A program made the translations under genes and the position numbers. Below are positions 56,338 to 58,144 of a stretch of 64,000 nucleotides of DNA, piece after piece. The notes under the pieces are model-generated. The model saw nothing but the letters and a program-made list of their open reading frames with translations. It was not told where the DNA came from and made no database searches. The stretch's first letter is position 1, and the number at the start of each line of letters is the position of its first letter. Source of the stretch: Phycisphaerales bacterium (lineage in GTDB: Bacteria > Planctomycetota > Phycisphaerae > Phycisphaerales > SM1A02); assembly GCA_030748575.1 (NCBI GenBank), contig JASMLR010000001.1:62001-126000 (forward strand), in the 5' to 3' direction.

Positions 56338-56763
56338 TCAGCGGCGTCGCCGTCCCCCGCAAAGACCGGCCAGCCCGAGCATCACCAGTGCCCCGGGGGC
56401 GGGGACCGGCATGCCACCGGGACTCCAGACGGGCGCGCCAGCGGACTGCTCGTCAATCCGAAGGCCTTGGTCATACGGATTCATGCCCCAGCCCTTGGGC
56501 TCTGTTGGTGACTGAAGGATCAGCGTCACGTCGAGCAGCGACGGTTTGGGCTTGGCGGACGTGTGGTCATTCCAGCCGATGGTGGCCCATTCGTCCTCGG
56601 GCAGCGTCGCGCCGCCCTTGATCATTCCGTCCTGGTTCGTGTGGAGCCGAGGCAGTTCGAACAACTGCCAGGGTGTGTCTGCAAACCTCGCGGAGGCCTC
56701 CGAGGTCGCCGCTGCCAGAAGGACTGCTGCGGCTGATGTCATGGTCGCTCTGTAAGTGTTCAT
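56338..56763 (-). CDS. PEP-CTERM-like sorted small secreted protein
   Basis: A 141-residue protein. It has a signal peptide (MNTYRATMTSAAAVLLAAAT, cleavage near ASA) and a short polar body. It ends with VPAPGALVMLGLAGLCGGRRRR: PAPG motif, hydrophobic segment and Arg cluster. GAGGAG stands five bases before the ATG at 56763. It starts 11 bases after the XRE/TPR regulator stop and is thus in that operon. No similarity to the two paralogues at 17645 and 19004 is evident except the tail. Confidence 0.75.
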   Translation of the reverse strand: MNTYRATMTSAAAVLLAAATSEASARFADTPWQLFELPRLHTNQDGMIKGGATLPEDEWATIGWNDHTSAKPKPSLLDVTLILQSPTEPKGWGMNPYDQGLRIDEQSAGAPVWSPGGMPVPAPGALVMLGLAGLCGGRRRR

Positions 56764-56774
56764 GGTGACTCCTC

Positions 56775-58037
56775 TCAAGATCCTGCTGGGACGCTGTCCG
56801 CGACGACCTTGGCGGACTCGAGCATGTTCCATCCGGTGCGGCGGAACTGCGGGAATCGACCCATGGTGCCCGTAATCATGCGGACATCGTCGTTGTCAAT
56901 GGTCAGGGGTTTGTCCTGACCGGTCCATCCAACGAATCGCCTGTGCCCATCGAACTGGATCGAGAACACGCGTTCCCGCATGGCCCAGTTGTCAAGCCGT
57001 TCGGCGATCTCGTCGGCCTTGTTTGTGAAGAGCGCCAGCAACCGCTGAAGTTCCCGCTCATCTGAAATGTGGCGAAGCGCGATGTTGCACCCGAAGATGC
57101 ACCACCATCCGTAACTCTCAAGTAGATCTCCGGTCGCTGTATCGTCGAGATCGACCACCTCGGACATGGCGTCCAGAATGGTGGCTGCAGCACTCCGGGC
57201 GTCGATCCGGCCGAGCATGACCTCTGCTTCAAGCATGCCACCCCGGCACGTGCGGGCGATGCCCGCGGCAGTGGGGTGGTCCCGCCAGTCCAGCATGTGA
57301 AGCGCCTGCGTTGCCTCCTTGAGCGTGGTGTGCGCGATGGCCGCGTGCTGGTTGGCGTGGCCCGGATCGGCGTCGATCAGGCGGCGGTGCGTGCTTCCCA
57401 GCACGTAGAGCGTGAAGGCGTGCGTGCGACGATCGCGATCGGACACCGGCGCTCCGCTCTGAAAGTGGGCGACGATTTCGGCCGCAGTGGCCTGCGCTTC
57501 GGTCAGGTGCCACAGGCTGTAGCACGAGTTGGCGAGATTGCTCTGCAGCATTCGACGGACGTCAGACGGAATCGGAGCCTCGGTCAGGCCCTCCCGTGCG
57601 ATGTCCAGGCTGCGTGTGAAACGACCGAGCCCGTCCCAGGCGCCGAGCTCCCGGTTGCAGGCCAGGGCACGTTCCTCCGCCGTGCTGGCGGCGGACCTCG
57701 CCTTTCCTGCAAGCCTGATCATCTCACGGTAGTTGCCTTGACGGTGAGCTTCACCGGCGAGCGTGTCGAGCTCGTCGAAGGTTGCGTCGCCTTCGACCGG
57801 CGGGACGTCGCCGTCGGCGCCGCCCCAGAGACACTCAGTGACGTCGCCGACTGACCAGTCGAGTACGTCCGCGAGTTCCACGATGAGATCGAGTTTCGGG
57901 TTGCCGCTTGCCGGGATGATCTTGCTTGAATCCCGGCCGAGCGCTTCAGCCAATTCGCGTCGATTCCAGTTTCGGTAGACCTGCGCCAGTTCCACCAGAC
58001 GCTCGAGTCGCTTTCTCCTGTTACACATGTCAATCAT
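56775..58037 (-). CDS. XRE-type HTH regulator with TPR-like C-terminal region
   Basis: A 420-residue protein. Residues about 8-65 form a Cro/C1-type helix-turn-helix (NRRELAEALGRDSSKI, DLIVELADVLDWSVGDVTE). Residues about 85-330 are helical TPR-like repeats, as in peptide-sensing RRNPP/Rgg regulators. The C-terminus has a beta-like segment with FDGHRRFVGWTG. GGGGAG stands eight bases before the ATG at 58037. It is followed after 11 bases by a sorted secreted protein. It may sense a peptide or nutrient and control the exported product. No DNA target is proven. Confidence 0.72.
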   Translation of the reverse strand: MIDMCNRRKRLERLVELAQVYRNWNRRELAEALGRDSSKIIPASGNPKLDLIVELADVLDWSVGDVTECLWGGADGDVPPVEGDATFDELDTLAGEAHRQGNYREMIRLAGKARSAASTAEERALACNRELGAWDGLGRFTRSLDIAREGLTEAPIPSDVRRMLQSNLANSCYSLWHLTEAQATAAEIVAHFQSGAPVSDRDRRTHAFTLYVLGSTHRRLIDADPGHANQHAAIAHTTLKEATQALHMLDWRDHPTAAGIARTCRGGMLEAEVMLGRIDARSAAATILDAMSEVVDLDDTATGDLLESYGWWCIFGCNIALRHISDERELQRLLALFTNKADEIAERLDNWAMRERVFSIQFDGHRRFVGWTGQDKPLTIDNDDVRMITGTMGRFPQFRRTGWNMLESAKVVADSVPAGS

Positions 58038-58134: not shown

Positions 58135-58144
58135 GTGACGTCAC
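58135..58144. promoter_or_regulatory. 10-base palindrome GTGACGTCAC
   Basis: A perfect palindrome close to the first dyad, resembling CRE- or CRP-like half-site pairs. Function not shown. Confidence 0.35.

Follow-up and report, generated by a model that had tools for sequence, protein, structure and literature searches.

A two-gene HTH-TPR regulator and exported-protein locus of Phycisphaerae as a candidate RRNPP-like peptide-sensing module

Peptide sensing by RRNPP regulators is described, in the available portions of two published accounts, for Gram-positive Firmicutes and their mobile elements (PMC9765709, PMC10075063). The signature set out in the accessible part of one of them has five criteria, namely a receptor of 250–500 aa, TPRs, adjacency within −60 to +400 bases, export, and a propeptide of 10–100 aa (PMC10075063). 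According to the accessible part of the other, most RRNPP pheromones are located C-terminally in their precursor, and some propeptides carry repeated motif copies (PMC9765709). Our literature search, the coverage of which did not extend to preprints and most subscription papers, returned no RRNPP system in Planctomycetes and no description of the regulator-partner pair reported here.

The pair is located in a 64,000-nucleotide stretch of contig JASMLR010000001.1 from a Phycisphaerales bacterium (the window). As in PlcR-PapR, NprR-NprX, Rap-Phr, and AimR, a predicted receptor (420 aa) with an HTH and C-terminal TPRs is combined with an exported product from the adjacent gene, here across a gap of 11 bases. 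The regulator model matches PlcR, Rap, and NprR structures, conserved Asn residues are found on its predicted TPR A-helices, and a motif in the partner is sometimes repeated in the family. The pair differs from RRNPP systems in its host (Phycisphaerae rather than Firmicutes), in the size of the window partner (141 aa against a propeptide limit of 100, with some family partners, such as L042 with 87 aa and L175 with 60 aa, within the propeptide range), in a candidate motif that is internal (residues 41–45 of 141) and near-invariant, in partners that have a surface-sorting tail or large scaffolds, and in that no clear sequence-level relationship was found for the regulator. Because the partner is oversized and its motif internal, we do not file the pair as an RRNPP member; it probably works like an RRNPP system. 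We propose, with a probability of about 0.6, that the two genes form an RRNPP-like peptide-sensing module, the ligand of which would be an H[ST]xQ[DEG] motif (HTNQD here) in the exported protein.

Gene pair and predicted structure of its products

The regulator gene starts with an ATG at position 58037, preceded by AGGGGAG, and its stop codon is at 56775–56777. The ATG of the partner gene (56763) lies 11 bases past this stop and has its own ribosome-binding site, so that reading the sequence bears out the original prediction of a regulator followed by an exported protein of 141 residues at this distance (Table 1). The genome contains a single copy of the regulator.

Table 1. Features of the regulator-partner locus in the window
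Feature	Position	Strand	Basis or remark
Exported partner gene, 141 aa	56338..56763	minus	sequence, family neighbourhood
Sorting tail, PEP-CTERM-like, partner residues 119–141	56341..56409	minus	below curated cut-offs
HTNQD, partner residues 41–45, proposed regulator ligand	56629..56643	minus	family motif
Putative signal peptide, partner residues 1–24	56692..56763	minus	by eye, AxA site
Ribosome-binding site GAGGAG of partner gene	56769..56774	minus	read directly
Regulator gene, 420 aa	56775..58037	minus	HTH, TPR superhelix, and C-terminal cap (predicted)
C-terminal segment of regulator, residues 378–411, GTMGRFPxFR, highly conserved	56805..56906	minus	alignment, model
TPR superhelix of regulator (predicted), residues 87–372, proposed motif-binding groove	56922..57779	minus	profile, model, co-variation with partner motif
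HTH DNA-binding domain of regulator (predicted), residues 1–77	57807..58037	minus	model helices, HTH matches of family members
Palindrome TGACGTCA	58136..58143	.	∼100 bases upstream of regulator

A model calculated from an alignment of 110 family members (mean pLDDT 93.3, pTM 0.88) predicts an HTH-TPR fold for the regulator, in which an HTH (helices 2–22, 26–33, 49–59, and 63–77) is followed by ∼6–7 TPR-like helix pairs and a C-terminal cap. The window regulator alone returned no significant Pfam or NCBIfam match and no Pfam TPR match; the TPR-like repeats that had been predicted for it were recovered with the family profile, which matches the structure of a designed consensus TPR protein (E = 3.4e-22 against PDB sequences), and in the superhelix of the model. 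Among 24 N-terminal segments of family members, HTH_31 matches 9 and HTH_3 matches 8 at E ≤ 1 (best 3.5e-4); the HTH_3 match to the window's own regulator is weak (E = 0.12), and the HTH profile on its own matches the PlcR HTH at E = 1 only. The helix pattern fits the previously suggested XRE type, to which these weak sequence matches faintly point as well.

In a Foldseek search of the PDB, TPR domains of eukaryotic LGN (GPSM2), solved with bound partner peptides, were the top matches of the regulator model (E about 1e-4); PlcR:PapR:DNA ranks 14th (E = 4.1e-4), and Rap structures follow from the 26th place onward. Re-alignment yields Z-scores of ∼19 for LGN, 17.9 for Rap phi3T, 17.7 for RapF with peptide, and 17.4 for NprR-NprX; in their match to the model, RRNPP proteins are equalled or surpassed by LGN and further eukaryotic TPR proteins. 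LGN differs in its unrelated function and in having no HTH, and its likeness to the regulator may be convergent or very distant. A profile search against PDB sequences returned 48 matches at E ≤ 1, none of them a Rap, PlcR, or NprR chain, and we therefore do not claim RRNPP membership by sequence. With PlcR, Rap, and NprR among the structural matches, the comparison with RRNPP regulators made in the original prediction is apt for the architecture.

The partner starts with a hydrophobic signal peptide with a predicted cut at an AxA site (ASA/RF, by eye) and reads HTNQDG at residues 41–46, within the segment PRLHTNQDGMIK; beyond HTNQD, the protein reads PAPGALVMLGLAGLCGGRRRR. Its predicted sorting tail has the form PAPG...RRRR and thus the PAPG type expected from the earlier reading, and it scores just under the curated cut-offs (16.4 versus 20.7 bits for PF07589, 15.1 versus 16 for TIGR02595). 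One exosortase match is found in the genome (PF09721, E = 6.4e-45), and an exosortase is present in 98 of the 101 genomes that have the regulator family. The partner thus resembles PEP-CTERM/exosortase substrates in its signal peptide, its PAPG, hydrophobic stretch, and Arg run, and the exosortase in the genome, and differs from them in the sub-threshold tail, many homologous partners being tailless. To our knowledge, neither the motif nor the pairing with a regulator is a part of the PEP-CTERM system.

The upstream palindrome is part of a block that is partly conserved in the window's genus and is a possible operator. No family-wide operator was found, the TGACGTCA block being missing from the other loci compared, and when 11 loci were searched against Rfam for RNA elements upstream, only tRNAs were returned. 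Upstream of the regulator, several of the loci L017–L024, L028, and L033 share a AAAAAAGGC-like stretch, which has no Rfam match where searched.

Family distribution and the partner motif

The regulator family was found in 77 of the 151 relatives' genomes searched and, at E ≤ 1e-15, in 40 of 347 class-drawn and 5 of 343 phylum-drawn genomes (the samples overlap). All matches from the class and phylum samples belong to class families f1, f2, f19, and f22, and family f4 appears among the matches from the search of relatives. Named regulator records are from Phycisphaerales/Phycisphaerae or generic planctomycete MAGs, with few bearing other labels. Among the genomes searched, the family was found only in Phycisphaerae. 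Eight partial matches had been removed before a set of 113 regulators was obtained.

Next to 106 of 130 regulator genes, an exported-type ORF starts −20 to +45 bases from the regulator stop, with export judged by a hydrophobicity window, not SignalP, that passes membrane proteins too; a ribosome-binding-site-like sequence is found at 92 of these 106 ORFs. Conservation of the pair in relatives, by which the original prediction had proposed to check itself, is hence observed across the class. In the named loci (the best 80 of 189, a set that overlaps the 130 genes and is biased to close relatives), 78 of 83 regulators have an exported-type ORF beside them, 69 of these with the strict motif. The pair persists in f1, f2, and f22 and among many paralogues, and this recurrence across the family exceeds chance. 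Recurrent flanking genes were rejected as a conserved third gene, since they look like syntenic housekeeping-type genes.

Other arrangements were seen as well. At L078, L086, and L181, a cation-efflux transporter-like gene (by eye), clearly not a partner, follows the regulator. One genome (G035) has 11 regulator copies (L065, L088, and L094–L102), many of them followed by another exported protein of ∼110–140 aa with a conserved PPPSPHLxPLLPRFF-like segment. In f19 (L175, L176, and L185), the regulator is followed by a motif-less exported protein of 60 aa, which is near the size of classical pheromone precursors and has a mature part reading GEVPSQWQG...LLSP or similar.

The partners are hypervariable and wholly different between clades, save for the short motif H[ST]xQ[DEG], the conservation of which in these sequences goes beyond the original prediction. 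It is found past residue 18 in 56 of 106 partners, the strict form being missing in the other 50. When one regulator per 60%-identity cluster is considered, 21 of 59 partners have the motif, whereas across 1000 shuffles the mean is 0.156 and the highest count 2. Partners contain 67 copies in 15,136 residues (4.4 per 1000) versus 8 copies in 313 neighbouring ORFs with 102,126 residues in total (0.08 per 1000). The motif is located at residues 33–76, after the signal peptide, and at least two strict copies are present in 11 of the 106 partners. Within the window's genus, mean identity is 75% for the regulator, 41% for the partner, and 30% for the partner middle, and HTNQDG is identical in seven of seven partners.

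The motif resides on variable scaffolds. Tail-bearing partners carry HTNQD, HTNQG, HSNQG, HTGQD, HTAQD, HTDQD, and others; tailless partners of ∼90–120 aa carry HTMQE, HSMQE, or HTVQE; and large exported proteins have the motif near their N terminus (L035, 507 aa; L060, 340 aa; L064, 384 aa; L174, 524 aa; L184, 554 aa). The L035 protein presumably resembles an M64 metallopeptidase, and those of L174 and L184 look like β-helices by eye. In a FastTree phylogeny of the regulators (midpoint-rooted, with 2 rows over 500 aa omitted and the window's long ORF trimmed to 420), the motif is found on both sides of the deepest split, with at least 15 state changes. Whole clades, such as the G035 regulators, have other exported partners.

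Among motif-less partners, those of L186/L259, L248, and L260 share GH[IV]DIPEI, and HNEQGR is common to the partners of L051, L237, L258, and L262, as if the tag had been exchanged. At L134 and L136 (genus g35), a dockerin-like (by eye) exported protein of 562 aa contains HTNQD once or twice, which may be chance. The HTNQD DNA pattern occurs once in the window's own genome, inside the partner gene. HTNQD as a general envelope motif was considered and rejected: among 30 loci, which account for 33 of 55 places with the pattern, 7 loci (9 places) are partners, and the remaining places fall in another reading frame or in unrelated proteins, or have no explanation. The Ty1 epitope tag, EVHTNQDPLD, has HTNQD as its core too, as stated in the available text of PMC6499798; the likeness is presumably a coincidence, and anti-Ty1 antibodies might cross-react with HTNQD-bearing partners.

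Co-variation of the regulator with the partner motif

We compared regulators in eight phylogenetically independent pairs, one member with and the other without the partner motif; rows in which the motif is degenerate or the ORF is lacking were omitted. The ten columns that best track motif loss are G132, H98, N128, V212, G303, D304, T263, D91, A261, and N170, of which nine belong to TPR A-helices and one immediately precedes an A-helix. A score of at least 3 is reached by 9 of 53 tested A-helix columns versus 0 of 46 columns in B-helices, HTH, and C terminus. A-helix columns differ from all others (p = 0.017), whereas A- and B-helix columns compared as wholes show no significant difference (rank test p = 0.34). 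The column changes may alternatively arise if motif-less regulators simply evolve faster.

In TPR proteins, A-helices line the concave face. A TPR binding groove, on which the original prediction had staked its interpretation, is present in the regulator model, and its A-helix face, which is strongly conserved, changes together with the partner motif. Asn-128, Asn-167, Asn-170, and Asn-318 are conserved in motif-bearing regulators; in RRNPP receptors, Asn residues fix the peptide backbone, as described in the available text of PMC3601957.

We also inspected a read-through model, in which a regulator of the same genus and its partner are fused in one chain (one model, 14 paired rows). The partner mostly has pLDDT values below 50, except for junction and signal-peptide parts and residues 466–477 and 484–485. 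Residues 466–477 correspond to GPLLHTNQDGVK, with the motif at 470–474, and the block 471–480 has a mean pLDDT of 63 and no secondary structure. No other non-helical part of the partner is predicted with confidence as clearly as the motif; pLDDT stays at 31–41 in the sorting tail, which most of these 14 rows contain. From this modest confidence peak in a fused chain, we infer that the motif may dock onto the regulator. The co-variation and the model suggest that the regulator senses its exported partner by recognising this motif.

Possible ligand source and function of the module

In the RRNPP-like module that we favor, the regulator would bind DNA via its N-terminal HTH, and the concave TPR face would bind the H[ST]xQ[DEG] segment of the partner in extended form. 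Once bound to the motif, the regulator would switch, in the simplest case at its own promoter, the autoregulation and the direction of the switch being presumed. The ligand could come from the unexported precursor or from a re-imported fragment.

It is possible, if tentative, that the regulator binds the motif of the cytoplasmic precursor, with expression of the operon following export and sorting capacity. Sensing of this kind requires neither protease nor importer. It is supported by a motif that sits behind the signal peptide, is near-invariant over many genera, has no constant cleavage site nearby, and is carried by exported proteins, surface-anchored or large, that would make unlikely precursors of a pheromone; the near-invariance, internal position, and anchoring tail or large scaffolds that set the partners apart from RRNPP propeptides fit sensing inside the cell too. 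HTNQD pairs are retained in genus g23, where SBP_bac_5 and oligo_HPY are missing from four of four genomes, although an OPT transporter in three of the four means that import could still occur there. Duplicated motif copies would be unneeded, and we know of no RRNPP receptor that has its own precursor as the main ligand. In the other version of the module, which we consider unlikely, the exported protein would be cut outside, and the motif fragment would be re-imported and bind the groove, reporting cell density or envelope turnover in a diderm host. The receptor does adjoin an exported precursor as in the RRNPP signature given in the accessible part of PMC10075063, and the repeated motif copies in 11 of the 106 partners recall some propeptides in the corresponding part of PMC9765709. 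Means of import are at hand, as the window's own genome has an Opp-type binding protein adjoined by a permease-like ORF, and SBP_bac_5 is found in 92 of 101 family genomes. Against a pheromone stand the internal rather than C-terminal motif in a partner of 141 aa, the lack of a constant flanking cleavage site, a motif that hardly diversifies between species, unlike private pheromones, and the outer membrane as an extra barrier. In the g23 genomes (G030, G063, G086, and G163), the OPT transporter found in three may be a replacement for the missing peptide importer.

A role of the motif outside the module, in which the exported protein would use it in the envelope for partner binding, processing, or modification while the regulator controls the operon in answer to another ligand, appears somewhat unlikely. 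Short motifs that are conserved in secreted proteins may act as sites of docking or processing, and the near-ubiquity of exosortase in the family genomes would agree with this; however, motif and TPR face co-vary, the motif is conspicuous in the read-through model, and with one HTNQD pattern in the window's own genome and a low density in neighbouring ORFs, it is not a general envelope signal. That unrelated genes are merely co-located is highly improbable: the recurrent flanking genes look syntenic and of housekeeping type, and gene order may be inherited passively among close relatives, but the pair spans f1, f2, and f22 and many paralogues, and the motif is common to them.

Within the RRNPP-like module, we lean slightly toward sensing of the cell's own unexported partner over a diffusible pheromone. 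The original interpretation of the locus, as a planctomycete form of cell-cell or envelope signalling, is partly supported, by the recurrence of the pair and the predicted groove, with signalling between cells as a possibility. At somewhat under even odds, Phycisphaerae may have a TPR-HTH receptor class of their own, which monitors its own exported or surface-anchored protein via a near-universal HTNQD-like five-residue tag that evolution shifts among unrelated exported scaffolds, and which would be an export-surveillance or envelope-turnover sensor, or a first case of RRNPP-like signalling in planctomycetes. The motif offers a five-residue, directly testable candidate ligand. If our reading is true, a lineage-restricted HTH-TPR receptor would extend the RRNPP-type principle to planctomycetes, and one group of uncharacterised planctomycete PEP-CTERM-like proteins would gain a function.
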